From Glaciihabitans sp. dw_435 (lineage in GTDB: Bacteria > Actinomycetota > Actinomycetes > Actinomycetales > Microbacteriaceae), in the NCBI RefSeq assembly GCF_018449675.1, contig NZ_JAAVUZ010000004.1, positions 186,001-250,000 on the forward strand: a stretch of DNA of 64,000 nucleotides. Reading direction: 5' to 3'. Position numbers and translations under genes: made by a program. Below, piece after piece: positions 36,135 to 47,049 of this stretch (positions within the stretch are counted from its first letter, which is position 1; every line of letters starts with the position of its first letter). The notes beneath the pieces are model-generated. The model saw nothing but the letters and a program-made list of their open reading frames with translations. It was not told the DNA's origin and made no database searches.

Positions 36135-37112
36135 GTGACGCTCGACACCCCGCGCAAGCTTTCCCTGCTCCGCGACCCCGTCGACCTTCTTTTTCGGGGG
36201 GTCGCCCGCACCGCCGGCATCACGGTTCTCGCCATCATGTCGCTGGTGGGACTGTTCCTCGCCTACCGCGCCACACAGGCACTGCAGGTGGCCGGCTGGA
36301 GCTTCTTCACCGAACAGTCGTGGGAGCCCGACGCTGGCAAATTCGGCATCGCGGCTGTGCTTGTGGGCACCATCCTCATTGCGCTTGTCGCCATCGTCAT
36401 CGCGGTGCCGCTCGCCACCGGCACTGCCCTCTACATCACGGACTACGCACCGCGTCGCATCAAGCAGACGCTGATCGGTCTCGTCGACCTCATGGCGGCC
36501 ATCCCCAGTGTCGTGTATGGCCTCTGGGGCTTCTTCTTCCTGCAGGGCAACATCACTGACATTTCGCGGTGGATCTCCCACACGTTCGGCTGGATCCCGA
36601 TCTTCGCGGTGGACGGAGCGGATCCCAACGACCCGCTCGCCAGCTCCACCGTCTATACCTCGTCCACGTTCATCGCCGGCATCGTTGTCGCGTTGATGAT
36701 CGCCCCCATCATCACCTCCATCATGCGCGAAGTGTTTTCGCAGGCACCGGTGGGGGAGCGCGAGGGCGCGCTTGCCCTGGGATCGACCAAATGGGGGATG
36801 ATCCGCTCGGTGGTCATCCCGTTCGGCCTCGGTGGCATGATCGGTGGCACCATGCTCGGTCTCGGCCGCGCGCTCGGCGAGACCATCGCCGTGTACATGA
36901 TCATCTCGCCCGTGTTCGTCATTCAGCCGCACATCCTGCAGGCGGGGGCCAGCTCGGTGTCGTCGCTCATCGCCCTCAAGTACGGCGAGGCCACCGAATT
37001 CGGAACCTCGGCTCTGATGGCGGCGGGACTCGCGCTGTTCATCATGACGCTGATCATCAACTTCGCAGCGTCGGCCATTGTCGCCCGCTCGCGGTCGGGA
37101 GCTAGCAGCTGA
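36135..37112 (+). CDS. pstC: Phosphate ABC transporter permease PstC
   Basis: Inner-membrane subunit of the high-affinity phosphate importer (325 aa, six to seven helices). After a hydrophilic lead and helix 1 comes the Pst-type FGIAAVLVGTILIALVAIVIAVPLATGTALYI (pattern GTILIALVAIVIAVPLATG). The cytoplasmic loop is EREGALALGSTKWGMIRSVVIP and ALGETIAVYM is characteristic of PstC. The GTG start follows aaaagga. The stop overlaps the pstA ATG (TGATG). Confidence 0.94.
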   Translation: MTLDTPRKLSLLRDPVDLLFRGVARTAGITVLAIMSLVGLFLAYRATQALQVAGWSFFTEQSWEPDAGKFGIAAVLVGTILIALVAIVIAVPLATGTALYITDYAPRRIKQTLIGLVDLMAAIPSVVYGLWGFFFLQGNITDISRWISHTFGWIPIFAVDGADPNDPLASSTVYTSSTFIAGIVVALMIAPIITSIMREVFSQAPVGEREGALALGSTKWGMIRSVVIPFGLGGMIGGTMLGLGRALGETIAVYMIISPVFVIQPHILQAGASSVSSLIALKYGEATEFGTSALMAAGLALFIMTLIINFAASAIVARSRSGASS

Positions 37113-38473
37113 TGAGTTCGACCATCGATGTACGCGCGATTCATGAGCGTCTGGATGCCGCGACGGGTGAGACATCCATCGTCCAGGCTGTTCCGGCGGG
37201 CACCACGCTGCCGCGCAACGTGCTGTCCGAATTGCCGCCCGAGTTGGTGACGGAGCAGCAGCCGCGACGGACATCCGCCCTGCGCATCAGTGACCTGCTC
37301 TCGGCGATCGGCGCCGCCATCGCCTCCCTCGCGGCCACCACCTTCCTCGTGACCCAGCTGGCACCCATTCAGGGACCGGTGGCGTTCGGCGTCATCGCCT
37401 ACATCCTGTTCGTGGTGTTCTACAGCATCCTCGTCGCCGCGGACGAGACGGGACCCGTCGTTCGGGACCGCATCGTGCTGGTCATCGTGCACTCGCTGGC
37501 GTTCACCATCTTCATCACGCTTGTCTTCGTCGTGCTGTTCAGCCTGATCCGGGGCGCCCAGGCACTGCCGCACCTCAACTTCTATACGCAGGACATGTCG
37601 CTCGCGGGGCCCCTTGACCCGCTGTCTGACGGTGGAGTGCTGCACGCGATCGTGGGAACGCTCATCCAGATCGCGATCGCCCTCGCGATCACGATTCCCC
37701 TGGGGCTGACGACCGCGGTCTTCCTCAACGAGGTGCCCGGACCATTCGCCAGGTTCGTGCGCACCATCGTCGAGGCGATGACCGCGTTGCCGTCGATCGT
37801 GGCCGGACTGTTCATCTACGCGTCCCTGATCCTGCTCCTCGGCTTTGAGAAGTCGGGATTCGCCGCCTCTCTCGCCATCAGCGTCATGATGCTGCCCATC
37901 ATGATCCGGTCGGCAGACGTGGTGCTGCGTCTCGTGCCGAGCACCCTCAAGGAAGCCTCGACCGGCCTCGGTGCCGGCCAGTGGGCGACCGTGTGGCGGG
38001 TCGTGTTGCCGACCTCGCGTTCCGGTCTCGTCACCGCGATCATCCTCGCAACGGCGCGTGGCATCGGCGAGACATCGCCCGTGCTCCTGACCTCGGGCTT
38101 CACCGCATCCCTCAACGTCGACCCCCTGCACGGACCGATGGTCTCGCTGCCGCTGGCCATCTTCCAGTTCGTGAAGTCGCCAGAGCCGACCATGATCGCG
38201 CGCGGGTTCGGCACCGCCGCGGTGCTGATGCTCGTTGTGCTCCTCCTCTTCGTGATCGCGCGCCTCATCGGCGGCCAGACGATCGCAAAGAAGGAACGCG
38301 CCCGCCAGCAGCGCATTGAACTCGCGGCGGACCTTCGCGCCCGCGCCCACGGACTCGCCACTCTTCCCGCCCGCACCGCCCGGCTTGCGCGCCGCCTGAC
38401 CACCCGGTCCGGCTCGGCGCATGCCGCCCGCAAATCCGACTCCACCCCGACGAACAAGGACGACACAGTATGA
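37112..38473 (+). CDS. pstA: Phosphate ABC transporter permease PstA, extended at both ends
   Basis: Partner permease of 453 aa, long for PstA (usually ~300). A ~55-residue hydrophilic N-terminus and two extra helices precede the core, and a basic C-terminal tail of ~70 residues (AKKERARQQRIELAADLRAR onward) follows it. The core carries GLTTAVFLNEVPG, ALPSIVAGLFIYASLILL, the EAA-like loop LKEASTGLGAGQWATVWRVV and ARGIGETSPVLLTSG. Stop and next start overlap (ATGA). The tails suggest extra cytoplasmic contacts. Confidence 0.92.
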   Translation: MSSTIDVRAIHERLDAATGETSIVQAVPAGTTLPRNVLSELPPELVTEQQPRRTSALRISDLLSAIGAAIASLAATTFLVTQLAPIQGPVAFGVIAYILFVVFYSILVAADETGPVVRDRIVLVIVHSLAFTIFITLVFVVLFSLIRGAQALPHLNFYTQDMSLAGPLDPLSDGGVLHAIVGTLIQIAIALAITIPLGLTTAVFLNEVPGPFARFVRTIVEAMTALPSIVAGLFIYASLILLLGFEKSGFAASLAISVMMLPIMIRSADVVLRLVPSTLKEASTGLGAGQWATVWRVVLPTSRSGLVTAIILATARGIGETSPVLLTSGFTASLNVDPLHGPMVSLPLAIFQFVKSPEPTMIARGFGTAAVLMLVVLLLFVIARLIGGQTIAKKERARQQRIELAADLRARAHGLATLPARTARLARRLTTRSGSAHAARKSDSTPTNKDDTV

Positions 38474-40170
38474 CCCGTGCACGCCGCCGCCTCCTTCCGG
38501 CGATACTTGCGCTCGCCATCACCGCTCTGGTGATTGTGCCGACAACGTCGGCCGCAGCTGTCGACTACGTCCCCATCAGCGGAGCCGGGTCATCCTGGAG
38601 CTCCAACGCCATCGATCAGTGGCGTCGCAACGTGCAGCAGTACGGCATGCGGATCAACTACGCGAACACCGGCTCATCGGACGGACGCAACCAGTACAAG
38701 GCCGGAACCGTCGACTTCGCCGTGTCGGAGATCCCGTACGGCATCAAGGACGGCGGTGTCGTTGATACCCCGCCGAGCCGCGCGTACTCGTACATCCCGA
38801 TCGTCGCCGGTGGTACTGCCTTCATGTACAACCTGCAGGCAGGCGGAAAGCAGATCACCAACCTCCGCCTGTCGGGTTCGGTCATCACCAAGATCTTCAC
38901 CGCGAAGATCACGAGCTGGGATGACCCGGCGATCGCCGCCGACAACCCCGGACTTGCCCTCCCGAAGCGCAAGATCGTCCCGATCGTGCGCTCCGACGGC
39001 TCCGGCTCGACGGCACAGTTCACCACGTGGATGAGCAAGCAGTACCAGGCGGACTGGGACGCGTACTGCGTTCGCGCCGGTCGCTCCGCCCCCTGCGGCG
39101 TGACCTCGAACTATCCGACAATTCCCGGCACGGGCTTCATCGCCCAGCCCAACTCGCAGGGCGTCTCCGGCTACGTGGCCCAGAAGGCAAACATCGGAAC
39201 CATCACCTACGTCGAGTACTCCTACGCGCTGAAGACCGGCTACCCGGTCGCCAAGGTTCTCAACTCGGCCGGCTACTACGTCGAGCCGACCGCGTCGAAC
39301 GTCGCCGTCGGACTCCTGGGCGCGAAGATCAACACCACGGCAACCTCCAGCAGCTACCTCACGCAAATCCTGGACGGCGTCTACGCCAACCCAGATAAGC
39401 GCACCTACCCGCTGTCGTCCTACTCCTACATGATCATCCCGACGTCGACGCAGAACAACTTCACCGAAGACAAGGGCAAGACCCTCGGCGCCTTCGCCTC
39501 ATATTTCCTGTGCGAGGGTCAGCAGCAGGCAGAGGTGCTCGGATACTCACCGCTCCCCATCAACCTGGTCAAGGCGGGTCTTGAGCAGATCGCCAAGATC
39601 CCCGGTGTCGGCACGTCGACGGTGAACATTGCCAAGTGCAACAACCCCACCTTCTCCAAGGACGGAACGAACACCCTCGCTGCGAAGGCACCGCAGCCGT
39701 CCGAGTGTGACAAAAAGGGCGCAACGCAGTGCACGGATGGCACGGGCGGCAGCAAGACGGACACCCCGGTCACCACCCCCGCCGTCACCCCCGGCACCTC
39801 GACCGGCGGCACCACCACAGGAGGAACGACGACCGGCGGCACGACCACGACGGGCGGAGCCACGGCCAGTGACGGGTCTTCTGCGGTCAACCCCGGCACC
39901 CCCGATGCGGCCACCGGCGGTACCTCCACCGGAACTGTCGGCACGGCCACCGGTGGAACGACGACGGGCCTCACCGCCGGCCCCGTGTCCTGTGAGGCCG
40001 ACACGGGAGTCTGCGCCAATGTCGTGGCCCTTCCCGTTGAGGTTGCTGCCACCAGCAGCTGGGGCGTTCCCCAGTCCCTCATGACCGGCGCCGTCGTTCT
40101 GCTGATCGGACTCGTCGTCGTGCCGCCCCTCATCGCCCAGCTCACCTCACGCCGTAGGAGGCGCGGATGA
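38470..40170 (+). CDS. pstS: Phosphate-binding protein PstS, membrane-anchored by a C-terminal helix
   Basis: Substrate-binding protein of 566 aa. A Sec signal peptide ending near TTSAAA replaces the usual lipobox. The PstS domain (residues ~35-400) has YANTGSSDG, AGTVDFAVSEIPY and the phosphate-loop motif IVRSDGSGSTAQFT. A low-complexity Thr/Gly stalk (~residues 420-510) leads to a C-terminal helix (TGAVVLLIGLVVVPPLIAQL) and RRRRRG. So the binder is held by a helix rather than lipid. Both ends overlap neighbours by ATGA. Confidence 0.9.
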   Translation: MTRARRRLLPAILALAITALVIVPTTSAAAVDYVPISGAGSSWSSNAIDQWRRNVQQYGMRINYANTGSSDGRNQYKAGTVDFAVSEIPYGIKDGGVVDTPPSRAYSYIPIVAGGTAFMYNLQAGGKQITNLRLSGSVITKIFTAKITSWDDPAIAADNPGLALPKRKIVPIVRSDGSGSTAQFTTWMSKQYQADWDAYCVRAGRSAPCGVTSNYPTIPGTGFIAQPNSQGVSGYVAQKANIGTITYVEYSYALKTGYPVAKVLNSAGYYVEPTASNVAVGLLGAKINTTATSSSYLTQILDGVYANPDKRTYPLSSYSYMIIPTSTQNNFTEDKGKTLGAFASYFLCEGQQQAEVLGYSPLPINLVKAGLEQIAKIPGVGTSTVNIAKCNNPTFSKDGTNTLAAKAPQPSECDKKGATQCTDGTGGSKTDTPVTTPAVTPGTSTGGTTTGGTTTGGTTTTGGATASDGSSAVNPGTPDAATGGTSTGTVGTATGGTTTGLTAGPVSCEADTGVCANVVALPVEVAATSSWGVPQSLMTGAVVLLIGLVVVPPLIAQLTSRRRRRG

Positions 40171-42686
40171 ACCACCGTTCCCTTATCCGACTCGGTAACG
40201 TCGCGGCGGTCTTCGGACTGGTCGTGACCACCGTGTCGGCAACGCTCCTCGTGACCACTCCGGTTGAGGCGGCGGATGACACGAGCTCAAGCGTCTCCGT
40301 CGCGTGGGCGGCAACCCACACCGACACCACCGACCCGAACTATGACGCCTTCAAAGACCTCACGGTGTCGGTCAGCCAGACCAAGAACCTCGTGAACCAG
40401 GGTGTCACCGTCTCCTGGACCGGGGCAAAGACGACGTCTCCCGGGGAGTACGCGACCGACTACCTGCAGATCATGCAGTGCTGGGGCGACGCTGCCGACG
40501 GCCCGACGCAACAGCAGTGCCAGTGGGGCGCGCCGAGCAACACCGTCGGAAACCTCATGGGCATCGGCGCCGCGGGGCGCGACCTGAACAACGGCGAGGA
40601 CGCCAAACAGAACTACTCGCCCGACCTGCTCCTTCCGGCCCCGGACACCAACCCGAACCTCAAGGCTTACTCGTACCCATTCACCTCGGTGAAGGGAGTG
40701 TCGACCTTCGACATGAGCCAGTTCTTCACCTCCGCAACAACCAACGAGATCAGTGCCGCCCGCACGGGATCCGACGGCACGGGCGAAGTCGTTGTCGAGA
40801 CGCAGACGGCGCTCGAAGCGCCGCAGCTCGGCTGCGGCGCCGTGATCACGGCAAACTCCGTCAGCACCGCGCGCTCCTGCTGGCTGGTCGTCGTTCCGCG
40901 TGGCGAGATCAGCACCGACGGCTCGAAGGCGAGTGACGCGCTCTCCGGTCGCATCAGCGGGTCTCCCTTCTCGCAGTCGAACTGGGCCCAGCGCATCGCC
41001 GTGAAGCTCGATTTCCAGCCCGTTTCGCAGTCCTGCCCGATCGGTAACGCCGAGCGCCGGGTTGTCGGGTCGGAACTCGTGGGCGACTCCATCACGTCCT
41101 GGCAGCCGGCGCTGTGCACCACGGGAACGACGTACGGGTACTCGCAGATTGGTGACGGAGAAGCCCGTCGACAGATCGTCAGCGGAATCGAGGGATCGGC
41201 CGCCCTCGGGTTTGTGTCCGAACCCCTCGATGACACGACGCGGGCGAAGGCAACCATCGAATACGCGCCGGTGACACAATCGGCGATCGTCGTGGCCTTC
41301 AACATCGATTACGCGCTCAACGCCGATTCCCCCAACGCGGGGAAAAACGGCACCCTCGTGAAGGACATCACTCTCAACGCGCGACTGGTGGCCAAGTTGC
41401 TGACCCAGTCCTATCGCGTTGATGTGCCCGGCCTTGCGGCCAAGAATCGCGTGGTCGCTGGCAACCCCATGGGCTTGACGGTCGACCCCGAATTCGTCGC
41501 GCTCAACCCCGAGTTCGCCGGTTTTGCCAGCCTCGCCGAGCCCGACGGATTGATCGTCGCCCTCGGAAGCAGCGACGCCGCGGCTCACGTCTGGGCCTGG
41601 TTGCGCTCCGACGCCGATGCGGCCTCCTTCCTCAGTGGCAAGGCGGACCCGTGGGACATGCAGATCAACCCGACGTACAAGGAGCTGTCGCTCGACACCG
41701 ACACCACGGTCGACAGTTTTCCCAAGGCCGACCTGAGCACTTACCGGGACTCGGCGAACGTGCCGGAGCCGGGATTTGGAACGCTCGACATGCGCCCGTA
41801 CACCAACGACTTCAACGAAGCGGCGTACCGGGCGCTCAAAGCAGACGCCGGGGTTAAGACGACCTGGGACGAAACCAAACTTCCGCCCGCGTTCGTATCC
41901 GCGGGCCCGCAGCTGCCGGGTCGTCACTTCATGCTGGCTCTGACGGACGCATCCGCGGCGGCGCGCTACGGGCTCTCGACCGCCAGGATCGTCAACTCGT
42001 CCGGTGAAGCGATCGCACCGACGGCCACCTCGATCACGGCGGGACTGTCAAATATGGTGGATTCCACCGTCAAGGGCGTCAAGGTCTACGACCCCACCGC
42101 CATCAAGGCGGGGTCCTACCCGCTGGGAATTCTCACGTACGCCGCCATCAACATGTGCGTGCCGGATGCCGCCACGCTCGCCGACTACGGCAAATTGCTC
42201 AAGTATGCGGTGGGTGCCGGACAGGTCAGCGGCGAGGCACAGGGTCAGCTTCCCCGCGGCTATGTGCCGCTCAGCCCGGCGTTCAAGGCGCAGACGGCCT
42301 CGGTCGTCAGCGACCTGAAGCGAGCCTTCGAACACAAGGGCATCTGCGAACTGCCGTCCACGCCAACTCCGACTCCGACGCCGACGCCCACTCCGACGAA
42401 GGAGCCCGTGGTGGTGGCTCCGCCGCAGACACCCATTGCGGACATTCCCCCGGTGGTCGACCCCGCCCCCGTCGTCTCATCGCCGCCCGTCGCGAGTCCC
42501 ACTCCGACACCCACGGCGACCGTCGTACCGGTGGTCCACCGCACGGTGGACACGCCGCTCCCCACCGGACGCCTCGGTCTCCTGGCTGCCCTCGGATTGG
42601 GAATCCCGACCATGATCGCCGGTCCGGTGTTCATCCGACGTGGCCGCAAACTGGCCCGTCTGAGTGACTTGCAGAAGCCGAAATAG
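40167..42686 (+). CDS. Large secreted substrate-binding-like protein with C-terminal membrane anchor
   Basis: Exported protein of 839 aa whose start overlaps pstS (ATGA). The signal peptide is MNHRSLIRLGNVAAVFG onward, cleaved near PVEAA. The body resembles a periplasmic-binding fold in places (GYSQIGDGEARRQIVSGIEG, AALGFVSEPLDD) but is about twice PstS length and not a clear family member. A TPTPTP/Pro-Val stalk (~residues 730-800) precedes helix LGLLAALGLGIPTMIAGPVF and basic RRGRK. It contains several Cys (CWGDAADGPTQQQC, LGCGA...SCW). A surface phosphate or organophosphate binder is inferred from the operon. Confidence 0.8.
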   Translation: MNHRSLIRLGNVAAVFGLVVTTVSATLLVTTPVEAADDTSSSVSVAWAATHTDTTDPNYDAFKDLTVSVSQTKNLVNQGVTVSWTGAKTTSPGEYATDYLQIMQCWGDAADGPTQQQCQWGAPSNTVGNLMGIGAAGRDLNNGEDAKQNYSPDLLLPAPDTNPNLKAYSYPFTSVKGVSTFDMSQFFTSATTNEISAARTGSDGTGEVVVETQTALEAPQLGCGAVITANSVSTARSCWLVVVPRGEISTDGSKASDALSGRISGSPFSQSNWAQRIAVKLDFQPVSQSCPIGNAERRVVGSELVGDSITSWQPALCTTGTTYGYSQIGDGEARRQIVSGIEGSAALGFVSEPLDDTTRAKATIEYAPVTQSAIVVAFNIDYALNADSPNAGKNGTLVKDITLNARLVAKLLTQSYRVDVPGLAAKNRVVAGNPMGLTVDPEFVALNPEFAGFASLAEPDGLIVALGSSDAAAHVWAWLRSDADAASFLSGKADPWDMQINPTYKELSLDTDTTVDSFPKADLSTYRDSANVPEPGFGTLDMRPYTNDFNEAAYRALKADAGVKTTWDETKLPPAFVSAGPQLPGRHFMLALTDASAAARYGLSTARIVNSSGEAIAPTATSITAGLSNMVDSTVKGVKVYDPTAIKAGSYPLGILTYAAINMCVPDAATLADYGKLLKYAVGAGQVSGEAQGQLPRGYVPLSPAFKAQTASVVSDLKRAFEHKGICELPSTPTPTPTPTPTPTKEPVVVAPPQTPIADIPPVVDPAPVVSSPPVASPTPTPTATVVPVVHRTVDTPLPTGRLGLLAALGLGIPTMIAGPVFIRRGRKLARLSDLQKPK

Positions 42687-42857: not shown

Positions 42858-44963
42858 ATGAAGGTAACCACCTTCAGCAAGTTCACCGTCTCCGTGTGCG
42901 CGGCGGCATTGATCGTCGGCGGCTTCGCGGCTCCGGCAATGGCTGACCCCGGCTCGTCCAGTCCGTTTGGCAAGCTCGTCGGACTCGGCTCCGACACGAC
43001 GCAGGACGTCATGAACGGCATCGCTGCCCTTCTGCCGGCCGGCGCGATGGCATCGTACGACGCCATCGGAACCGACACCGTCACCACGCGTGCCGGTTCG
43101 TCCGTCACGACCCCCCGCGCCAGCGGTTCGGGTGCGGGAATCAACGTGCTCCGTGTCGCCATCGGACAGACCGCCACCGCAACCATCACCCGCCCGAGCG
43201 GCGTTTCCGACGCAGCGACGGCAGCAAACTCCGTCGGCTACATCGACTTCGCCCGCAGCTCCAGCGGTCCCGCTACCACGGACGTCACCTCATCTGGTGT
43301 GCTCACCTACGTGCCGTTCGCGAAGGACGCAGTGTCCGTCGCGGTCAACCCCGGTAGCGCGCTGTCGAAGATCCCCAACCTGATCCTCGGTGACTCCACC
43401 ACCGCCGGTTCCACGGTTGCTTCGCTCTACAACATCTACCGCGGCGACGTCGCGTACGTGTACCTGAACGCTGACGCCACGTATAACTCCGTTGGCAAGA
43501 CGTCGACCGGCCCCACCGGCACGACCGCCAACAAGATCCAGGCGCTGCTGCCCAAGGCTGGCTCGGGAACCCGCAGCTACTTCATCGGCAAGCTGAACCT
43601 CACCGAGACCGACATCACGGGACTGAAGTCCAGCGGCGTCATCAAGGACACCTTCGGATCCGCTTCCGCTCCCGTGGAAGAGCACGATGGAACCGCGCTC
43701 GTCGGAGACGCCACCGCAATCGTGCCGTTCTCTGTCTCGCAGTGGATCGCCCAGGCAAACGCCGTCACGACCGACCGCCGTCACGGCGTCTCGATCGCAA
43801 CGCTCAATGCCGTTGCGCCGGCCACCCTGGCTACCAGCAAGTACACGCTGAACCCGGCATACTCCGCCATGGTTCGTAACGTCTACAACGTTGTTCCGTC
43901 GAACCTCGTTGACGACCCGGCCAGCGACGTCGCCAAGACGTTCGTCGGCACCGGGTCGCTCGTCTGCAGCCAGACCGCAGCCATCGAGCGCTACGGATTC
44001 GGTCTCCTCACCGGAGCGGGCAACATCGCGACGGCGTGTGGAAACACCCTCACCCGCGCGTACGTTGCGTCGGCAAGCTCGACCACGTTCGCCTTGAGCT
44101 CGCCGTCGACCACGGTTGGCACCCCCGTTACCGCGACCGCGAACGTCGTCTCCACCAACAACGGTGGCGGCACGGTCCAGTTCAAGAGCGGCGGAGTCCT
44201 CGTCGGAATTGCTGCTGTTGCAAACGGTGCCACCACGGCCGCCACGACGATCACGCCGACTACGGCTGGTTCGCTCCCCGTCACCGCGACGTTCATTCCG
44301 GCTCTGCCCGGTGTTGCTGCCAGCACCTCGGCAGCGCAGACGATCATCGCGTCGACCCCGGTCGTCACGCCGCCTCCGGCACCGACCGCCACGAAGTCGG
44401 CAGTCACCATCTCCGCGATCGGCACCAAGCCGACCGTCGGTAAGGTCCTTCCGATTGCCATCACGGTCGTCAACCCGTCCGCCGCTGCCGGTGTCGTTCA
44501 GCTGCGCTCGGGTGGAACCCTGGTCGCGAAGATGGTCATCCCCGCCGGTAAGGGCAAGGTTGTCGTCTCCTTCGTGCCGAAGACCGTCGCGTACAAGCTG
44601 ACCGCGTACTACACGCCGGCTGCCGGTTCTTCCACCATCGGAAGCTCCAGCGCCGTCAAGACGGTTCCGGTTGCCAAGGCCACCGCTGTGATCAAGGTTG
44701 GTGCGATCAAGTCCGTATCCGCCAAGGCCAAGGCCAAGGTCACCGTGGTTGTGGCAGCTCCCGGAGTAGTTACCTCGGGAACGATCACCATCAAGCAGGG
44801 CTCAAAGGTCCTCGTCTCGAAGGCCGCCTTCAAGGGCTCCACCGGAACGTTCACGCTTCCGAAGCTCAAGAAGGGCAACCACACGTTGACCGTCGTCTTC
44901 AACGGTTCACCCCTGGTGAACGCCGCGTCGAAGACCGGCATCGTCGTCAAGATCAAGAAGTAG
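42858..44963 (+). CDS. Secreted PstS-like binding protein fused to Ig-like repeats
   Basis: Exported protein of 701 aa. The signal peptide ends near APAMADPG. Residues ~35-395 are a substrate-binding domain (KLVGLGSDTTQDVMNGI, VGYIDFARSSSG, and GSGTRSYFIGKL, the expected anion-loop position). Residues ~400-700 are bacterial Ig-like repeats (TTFALSSPSTTVGTPVTATA; GTVQFKSGGVLV; GVVQLRSGGTLVAKM; GTITIKQGSKVLVSKA). The end is basic (VKIKK) with no helix, lipobox or LPXTG. Ggaaggaa precedes the ATG. It probably sits in the wall or medium; ligand inferred to be phosphate-related. Confidence 0.82.
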   Translation: MKVTTFSKFTVSVCAAALIVGGFAAPAMADPGSSSPFGKLVGLGSDTTQDVMNGIAALLPAGAMASYDAIGTDTVTTRAGSSVTTPRASGSGAGINVLRVAIGQTATATITRPSGVSDAATAANSVGYIDFARSSSGPATTDVTSSGVLTYVPFAKDAVSVAVNPGSALSKIPNLILGDSTTAGSTVASLYNIYRGDVAYVYLNADATYNSVGKTSTGPTGTTANKIQALLPKAGSGTRSYFIGKLNLTETDITGLKSSGVIKDTFGSASAPVEEHDGTALVGDATAIVPFSVSQWIAQANAVTTDRRHGVSIATLNAVAPATLATSKYTLNPAYSAMVRNVYNVVPSNLVDDPASDVAKTFVGTGSLVCSQTAAIERYGFGLLTGAGNIATACGNTLTRAYVASASSTTFALSSPSTTVGTPVTATANVVSTNNGGGTVQFKSGGVLVGIAAVANGATTAATTITPTTAGSLPVTATFIPALPGVAASTSAAQTIIASTPVVTPPPAPTATKSAVTISAIGTKPTVGKVLPIAITVVNPSAAAGVVQLRSGGTLVAKMVIPAGKGKVVVSFVPKTVAYKLTAYYTPAAGSSTIGSSSAVKTVPVAKATAVIKVGAIKSVSAKAKAKVTVVVAAPGVVTSGTITIKQGSKVLVSKAAFKGSTGTFTLPKLKKGNHTLTVVFNGSPLVNAASKTGIVVKIKK

Positions 44964-45054: not shown

Positions 45055-46074
45055 ATGAGGCAGACCAGCTGGCGAATGCCATCCCGCACACTCGCGAAGA
45101 TGGCGCGCGCGCGTACCCGAGTTGCCCAGGAGGCCGCTCGCAAGAAGCGCAGGGACGAAGAGAACGCCGCCTACGCGATCGAAGCGGCCAACCGTCCCAC
45201 ATCGCGCTCGGTACCCCAGCTGGACGCTCCCGAACAGTTCCGCCTCACCGGGTCAATCCTGGTAGCCCTCGGCCTCCTCCTCGTCGGATTCGCCGTCCAG
45301 TTCGCCGGCATCTCGCAGGTCAGCTACCTTCGCGACCAGCAGCTCTCGTTCGACGACTACCGGTACCAGCTGGCCAACGCCACCGCGCCCGTCGGCCAGA
45401 CCGGCGTTGACAACCGACTCCTGCCCATGGGCACCGAGGTGTCGGTACTCGACATCGACTCCATCAAGCTGCACGCCGTCGTTCTCGAGGGAACGTCGTC
45501 CGATGTCACCCAGTCCGGGCCCGGCCACCGCCGCGACACCCCACTCCCCGGCCAGGCCGGCGCGAGCGTCATCGTCGGACGCCAGTCCACGTACGGCGCC
45601 CCCTTTGCTGCCATTGGCAGTCTGAAAAAGGGCGATGTCATCACGGCGACCACCGGCCAGGGCGTCGCCACTTACACCGTCTCCGGAGTGCGCCATACCG
45701 GTGACCCGCTGCCCGCTGCCCTCGCTGCCGGTGGCGGCCGTCTCACCCTGGTTAGCGCATCGGGACTCCCGTTCCTCCCCAACGGCATTGTTCGCGTCGA
45801 CGCGACACTGACCACCCCGGCCCAGGCGAGCCCCGGGCGCGTCCTCACCTACGGCGCCCTCGACGACGACGAGCTGACCATGGCCGGCAATCCCGCGGGA
45901 TGGCCGATGCTGCTTCTCGGTCTCATCGGACTCCTGGTGACGCTGGCCCTCATGGCGATCAGCATTCGCTACTGGGGCCGGTGGCAGAGCTGGGTCGTCG
46001 CGGTGCCCGTGCTGCTCGCCATCGGCTGCTTCACCGCCCAACAGGCATCCGTCATCCTCCCCAATCTTCTGTAA
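45055..46074 (+). CDS. Sortase-fold membrane protein lacking catalytic His and Cys (pseudosortase) in the pst locus
   Basis: Protein of 339 aa: basic N-terminus, a helix at ~65-84, a sortase-like domain at ~120-255 and two C-terminal helices. Class E sortase landmarks align: GPGHRRDTPLPGQAGASVIV, then STYGAPFAAIGSLKKGDVI and LTLVSAS. Where active enzymes have VIAGHRTTYG this has VIVGRQSTYG (Arg176 for His), and where they have LTLVTC it has LTLVSA (Ala235 for Cys). A downstream Arg (NGIVRV, ~247) remains. The only Cys is in the last helix. Starts at 45055 or 45076 are possible; an earlier frame would overlap the terminator. A scaffold role for the surface binders is inferred. Confidence 0.8.
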   Translation: MRQTSWRMPSRTLAKMARARTRVAQEAARKKRRDEENAAYAIEAANRPTSRSVPQLDAPEQFRLTGSILVALGLLLVGFAVQFAGISQVSYLRDQQLSFDDYRYQLANATAPVGQTGVDNRLLPMGTEVSVLDIDSIKLHAVVLEGTSSDVTQSGPGHRRDTPLPGQAGASVIVGRQSTYGAPFAAIGSLKKGDVITATTGQGVATYTVSGVRHTGDPLPAALAAGGGRLTLVSASGLPFLPNGIVRVDATLTTPAQASPGRVLTYGALDDDELTMAGNPAGWPMLLLGLIGLLVTLALMAISIRYWGRWQSWVVAVPVLLAIGCFTAQQASVILPNLL

Positions 46075-46104: not shown

Positions 46105-47049
46105 ATGAACGACGCGAACTCCGCGCAGGCCGGCACGGCGGTCTCGGGGGACAGCCCCACGCAACTGCTCGTCACGACGCCGGCGCCCGCCGAGGCCGAG
46201 ACGGTGCGCATCCCGACGATCGCCAGCGGGGGAGTGTCCACCCGTCCGCGTGGGGAGCTGCCCACGGGAGAAGGACTCGCGACCCTCGAGGCGCGTGACA
46301 TCTCCGCGTGGTTCGGCGACCACAAGGTGCTCGACCGGGTATCGCTGACCATGCCCGCGGGCCAGGTCACCGCCCTCATCGGGCCGTCGGGCTGCGGTAA
46401 GAGCACGTTCCTGCGCACCCTGAACCGCATGCACGAGCTGGTGCCCTCCGCCCAGCTGGCGGGCGAGGTACTGCTCGACGGCAGCGACATCTACGACGCG
46501 AGCCGCCGCATCACCGAGGCACGCCGCGATATCGGCATGGTGTTCCAGAAGCCGAACCCGTTCCCCGCGATGAGCATTCAGGACAACGTCATCGCCGGAC
46601 TCGCCCTCACCGGCATCAAGAAGAGCAAGAGCGAGAAGTCCGACCTCGTCGAGTACAGCCTGGCAAAGGCCGGGCTGTGGAACGAGGTCAAGGACCGCCT
46701 GCGCGCCCCCGGTGGTGGCCTCTCGGGCGGCCAGCAACAGCGTCTGTGCATCGCGCGGTCCCTCGCGGTGCAGCCGCGGGTGCTGCTCATGGACGAGCCG
46801 TGCTCCGCTCTCGACCCCAGCTCCACGCGGCGCATTGAGCAGACGATCATGGAGCTCGGCACCGAGGTCACCATCGTCATCGTGACGCACAACATGCAGC
46901 AGGCTGCCCGGGTGTCCGACCAGTGCGCGTTCTTCCTCGCCGAGGCCGGCACGCCGGGCGTCATCGTCGAGCACGGTGCCACCAAGTCGATGTTCGAGTC
47001 CCCGCAGGACCCGCGCACCCTCGACTACGTCAACGGCCGCTTCGGATAA
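46105..47049 (+). CDS. pstB: Phosphate ABC transporter ATP-binding protein PstB
   Basis: ATPase of 314 aa energising phosphate import. A ~57-residue Thr/Pro/Glu-rich N-terminal extension, absent from most PstB (~260 aa), precedes the ATPase domain. Walker A is GPSGCGKST (93-101), followed by [28 protein letters not shown] (PstB hallmark), [27 protein letters not shown] and [13 protein letters not shown]. It lies 30 bp after the sortase-like gene and last in the locus, away from pstC/pstA. No phoU follows. Confidence 0.95.

Follow-up and report, generated by a model that had tools for sequence, protein, structure and literature searches.

A Sortase Fold Apparently Stripped of Its Catalytic Residues in a Second Pst-Type Cluster of Actinomycetota

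A family of sortase-like proteins, here termed pseudosortases, was found in which the loss of catalytic residues has been fixed by descent while the fold has been kept. The member described here lies in a window of 64,000 nucleotides from Glaciihabitans sp. dw_435 (contig NZ_JAAVUZ010000004.1, positions 186,001 to 250,000), where its gene occupies positions 45055..46074 (window coordinates; forward strand, as for all features given below), starts with ATG and encodes 339 aa. Because the chemistry has been lost throughout actinobacteria and the gene lies inside a Pst cluster, our analysis suggests that a second phosphate importer has taken over the sortase fold as one of its parts, no longer catalytic and probably serving as a holder for surface-anchored binding proteins.

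The protein consists of a cytosolic basic tail, a first transmembrane helix (TM1), an extracytoplasmic sortase barrel, two further transmembrane helices (TM2 and TM3) and a C-terminal PNLL. TM1 (45241..45309, about aa 63-85) falls within a helix of the model that spans residues 58-107, its limits being approximate and drawn from both sequence and model, whereas TM2 (45898..45975, aa 282-307) is taken from the model. TM3 (45979..46056, aa 309-334) is followed by the PN of the terminal PNLL, which is invariant in the homologues, and contains the only Cys of the protein, C325, as the first-pass annotation had said in placing it in a C-terminal helix. The barrel itself (45424..45825, aa 124-257) is delimited by a Pfam match, an AF2 model and structural matches. 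A pseudogene or frameshift was considered and rejected as the frame is open, third-position GC is high and invariant residues are present in 124 homologues.

The sortase barrel in the window protein is confidently predicted. Pfam Sortase (PF04203) matches the sequence with 55.5 bits (cut-off 26.6), and a profile built from the pseudosortase homologues recovers solved sortases. The best subfamily model is that of class E in NCBIfam (NF033747), yet the score of 67.9 bits stays far below the cut-off of 160, whereas an active sortase of the same genome, used as the control, reaches 232.7 bits. The AF2 model, computed from a 70-sequence alignment, has a mean pLDDT of 93.0 and a pTM of 0.81. All 50 matches listed by VIA-align are sortases, and so are the PDB matches listed by Foldseek. 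The top PDB match is 6ixz (Z 18.3 over 157 aa); 4d70 matches with Z 18.1 and SrtE1 (5cuw) with Z 15.3 over 131 aa at 2.3 A. The class E landmarks and the sortase barrel claimed at first pass are therefore borne out, and the structure prediction and superposition proposed there as a check returned a sortase barrel. By Z, the class D and C sortases (4d70, 6ixz) are the best fold matches; these, however, are described as transpeptidases, the pseudosortase is nearer to class E by NCBIfam score, and no pilus genes occur here.

At the position of the catalytic His the window protein reads VIVGRQ, with Arg176 (codon 45580..45582), and at that of the catalytic Cys it reads LTLVSA, with Ala235 (codon 45757..45759), in agreement with the initial reading of the sequence. 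In an alignment of 95 homologues every sequence has Arg at position 176, while position 235 is Ala in 82 of them, Gly in nine and Ser in four, a consistency that chance would not produce. Most of this collection had been gathered with patterns that contain the Arg, so a selection bias was possible, and two checks were carried out. The neighbouring gene for an 839-aa binding protein (PBP2) served as bait in a search of 148 genomes of the class, and 24 sortase-fold ORFs lie close to it; position 176 is Arg in 20 and Lys in four of these, with no His, and none has Cys at position 235. A profile of active sortases recovered the same 24 PBP2-linked ORFs and no others. A phylum-wide protein search then yielded 16 further loci, five in Pst clusters and 11 outside. 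The five deep relatives in Pst clusters have neither the catalytic His nor the Cys. The homologues outside Pst clusters have His in ten cases and Asp in one, and all nine whose alignment reaches the Cys position keep the Cys. When all Pst-linked homologues are pooled (n = 124, with 29 found without selection on the active site), position 176 is Arg in 119 and Lys in five, and neither His nor Cys occurs at its catalytic position. The Arg result thus holds against the suspected bias of the pattern search, and a loss restricted to this strain is rejected as His and Cys are absent throughout the Pst-linked homologues. The homologue alignment that had been proposed at first pass accordingly finds both losses fixed, none of the 124 same-context homologues retaining either residue.

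The earlier statement that the downstream Arg is kept did not stand. Position 247 is Arg in 73 of the 95 homologues and otherwise mostly Tyr or His, and most of the divergent members have Tyr there. In the sequence alignment, the catalytic Arg of active sortases falls at about 245/246, where the pseudosortase is hydrophobic. Since Arg247 does not align with the catalytic Arg and 245/246 is hydrophobic, the catalytic His, Cys and Arg all appear to be gone in the window protein, and the pseudosortases presumably lack any catalytic activity.

Ten residues that are rare or absent in active sortases are invariant in the pseudosortases, namely R160, D161, R176, G201, Q202, R213, R229, G237, P242 and D249, and these new invariants indicate that the protein is under selection and is not decaying. 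The first two belong to the family-specific part of an HRRD stretch (45526..45537, aa 158-161). In SrtE1, Tyr229 is the class E Tyr of the beta3/beta4 loop that lines the S3 subsite (PMC5148588). This Tyr is replaced by Arg159 in the window protein. Arg213 and Arg229 may be located away from the groove. In the membrane part, Gly308, Trp313, Pro318 and Pro336-Asn337 are conserved as strongly as the barrel. With class E sortases such as SrtE1 of Streptomyces coelicolor the pseudosortase shares the barrel fold, the N-terminal TM topology, the GxGH...PGxxG landmarks and, in part of the family, adjacency to an LAXTG protein. Unlike them, it has no catalytic His, Cys or Arg, carries Arg for the S3 Tyr, has two extra C-terminal TM helices, scores 65-68 bits against the class E cut-off of 160, and sits in Pst clusters.

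In the tree, 60 pseudosortases and 26 active sortases are split by one branch (support 100/88) that is present in all bootstrap trees. This is consistent with a single loss of the catalytic residues, apparently an early event in Actinomycetota, and several orders of the phylum show the loss as fixed. One Pst-linked member, L199:8816-10156, located directly upstream of pstC, has Arg for His and Ser for Cys but retains the catalytic Arg; its active-site stretches are LAGRRTTYGAPF and TTSNPEYLASERLVV. On the class E model it scores 119.7, intermediate between active enzymes (189, 233) and the remaining pseudosortases (65-68), and it is an apparent transitional pseudosortase. A sortase homologue outside Pst clusters (L209:9125-9814) has Asp at the catalytic His position (AGDR) and keeps its Cys. 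Phytohabitans genomes contain two paralogous copies of the whole cluster (L095/L110, L096/L099, L062/L086) with different surface-protein genes.

The genes in the window are arranged in the order pstC, pstA, pstS, PBP2, a binding protein with Ig domains, the pseudosortase and pstB. The first two encode a pstC-type permease of the paralogous Pst system (36135..37112) and a pstA-type permease (37112..38473), the latter assigned by sequence similarity and gene order. Three binding proteins follow: PstS (38470..40170), which scores 210.4 bits with TIGR00975, above the cut-off of 205; PBP2 (40167..42686); and a third, PstS-like and secreted protein fused to Big_3_5 Ig domains (42858..44963). Directly downstream of the pseudosortase is a pstB-type ATPase (46105..47049; TIGR00972, 341.7 bits against a cut-off of 343.2). 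From its genes, the cluster is predicted to be a Pst-type importer that transports phosphate. It represents a second Pst system, since a separate, canonical Pst cluster exists in the genome; the PstS of that cluster is a lipoprotein, and a gene that probably encodes a polyphosphate kinase lies close by.

This context is kept throughout the family. Among loci with enough flanking sequence, pstB adjoins the pseudosortase in 74 of 76 and PBP2 occurs in all 63, while a PBP-like gene and PstS are found in 63 of 64 and 60 of 63, respectively. In the deep relatives L197, L198 and L199 the gene order is reshuffled (pstB comes first, or the pseudosortase stands directly before pstC or is divergent from it) and the link to Pst genes is kept, which argues against passive synteny; operon membership alone proves no physical complex. 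The system resembles the PstSCAB importer in having PstC, PstA, PstB and PstS homologues in one cluster and in keeping the ligand loops of canonical PstS. It differs in being a second, paralogous system, in holding PstS on a C-terminal helix instead of lipid, and in having two further PstS-like proteins, extra genes between pstA and pstB, and the pseudosortase subunit.

The PstS of the window has no lipobox, and only three of 85 relatives have a weak match to one, inside the hydrophobic region. Its C-terminus instead comprises a Gly/Thr-rich stalk, the juxtamembrane motif LPVEV, a TM helix and an RRRRR tail. A juxtamembrane P-hydrophobic-x-aliphatic motif occurs in 78 of 98 PstS sequences against 17 expected from shuffles; as the sequences are related, this comparison overstates the motif, and the Pro is missing from some members. 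In the model of PBP2, a beta-rich N-terminal domain (aa ~43-290) precedes a region with the PstS fold (aa 294-727, Z 30), and the protein has a C-terminal TM helix; no Pfam match was found for this 839-aa protein at E up to 0.1.

The absence of LPXTG substrates nearby, as recorded in the first-pass annotation, is correct within the window, where none was found near the pseudosortase, but it does not extend to the family. An LAXTG, LPXTG or MAXTG signal terminates the product of the gene immediately before the pseudosortase in 27 of 62 loci, compared with nine of 832 other flank genes. A whole-genome scan for sorting signals with short patterns performed no better than its control. The upstream sorting-signal protein of Streptomyces carries a Big_3_5 Ig domain, of the same domain family as that in the third binding protein of the window; the upstream position and the common domain support descent from a sortase-substrate pair. 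Given these upstream genes, a tail-binding role of the pseudosortase stays plausible. At L059:8337-9797 and in Streptomyces relatives, the proteins directly upstream are Ig-domain surface proteins with LASTG, and this signal has drifted to MASTG or MAATG in several Streptomyces. In other loci (L040:5476-7715, L068, L083, L084 and L106) the binding-protein genes are separated from the pseudosortase by WxL-like and WxLIP (PF06030) genes. Such relatives recall the loci of WxL and WxL-interacting proteins; these genes are absent from the window, however, and classical WxL loci are not known to encode Pst transporters.

The reading we prefer, although we would put it at somewhat below an even chance, is that the pseudosortase is a non-catalytic subunit which keeps anchored binding proteins close to the transporter by docking their C-terminal tails. 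A class-E-like sortase that lost its catalytic His, Cys and Arg would since have served a paralogous Pst-type ABC importer as a membrane subunit without catalysis; the PstS of this importer is no lipoprotein but is anchored through a stalk and a C-terminal helix. The former substrate groove, with the family-specific basic residues Arg159 and Arg176, would bind the juxtamembrane segment of the anchored PstS without cleavage and, where an adjacent surface protein is present, also the end that carries its sorting signal, and the stalked binding proteins would thereby be gathered around the PstCA channel. Docking of stalked phosphate binders is compatible with the C-terminally anchored PstS and its conserved juxtamembrane motif; a counterpoint is that the window lineage has no sorting-signal partner. 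The binding or scaffold role proposed at first pass thus survives in its main argument, a fold kept in the model and chemistry lost in 124 homologues, but its support from a kept Arg was wrong and that from missing substrates incomplete. More tentatively, the sortase fold may have become a non-covalent receptor for degenerate tails resembling sorting signals, by which an importer collects C-terminally anchored binders, a form of 'sorting without cutting'.

The basic residues at the former active site could also belong to an anion sensor or receptor whose ligand would be phosphate, polyphosphate or a wall phosphopolymer and which would signal its binding to PstCAB, with no protein tail bound. 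The catalytic His is always replaced by Arg or Lys and never by a neutral residue, Arg160, Arg213 and Arg229 are family-specific, Arg159 would lie in the S3 subsite, and the context is a phosphate importer. We nevertheless consider such a sensor unlikely: up to three PstS-fold binders are already present in the cluster, and the sortase fold is not known to have a phosphate-binding motif. The frequent sorting-signal (CWSS) protein upstream would fit an adaptor for a housekeeping sortase, which captures the sorting-signal proteins of the operon and either hands them to an active class E sortase elsewhere or shields them from it. Other sortase-family genes are present in each of five genomes checked, and a class E sortase that scores above the cut-off is found in the window genome. 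The chance of an adaptor seems slimmer still, as the CWSS protein is absent from the window lineage and many others while the Pst genes are nearly always present, and Arg replaces the Tyr of the class E S3 subsite.

Another alternative is a plain structural subunit, with the three TM helices and the terminal PNLL associating with PstCA and the barrel left as just an extracytoplasmic spacer or cap. This would account for the conservation of the membrane part and for the near-constant adjacency of pstB. The most strongly family-specific residues listed sit in the barrel, however, several of them at the former active site, and we rate this explanation a little lower again. That the protein is still an enzyme with altered catalytic residues is very improbable. 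Migrated catalytic residues do occur in some pseudoenzymes, according to PMC10211241, but the sole Cys here is in a membrane helix and is not conserved, position 235 is mostly Ala, and the catalytic Arg is gone too.

No description of a 'pseudosortase' or of a Pst-linked or inactive sortase was found in the literature searched, which takes in few subscription journals or preprints. Many enzyme families are known to include pseudoenzymes. A dead sortase fixed in a transporter operon in several orders of Actinomycetota, with family-specific basic residues in and near the dead site, would show the recruitment of a cell-surface transpeptidase as a transporter part, and would suggest that 'sortase' database entries beside pst genes are misnamed. 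It also brings into view a second Pst system, one anchored at the cell surface, that can now be studied. If the sortase fold has indeed become a receptor for degenerate tails, importers in much of Actinomycetota would share a new means of attaching their substrate-binding proteins.
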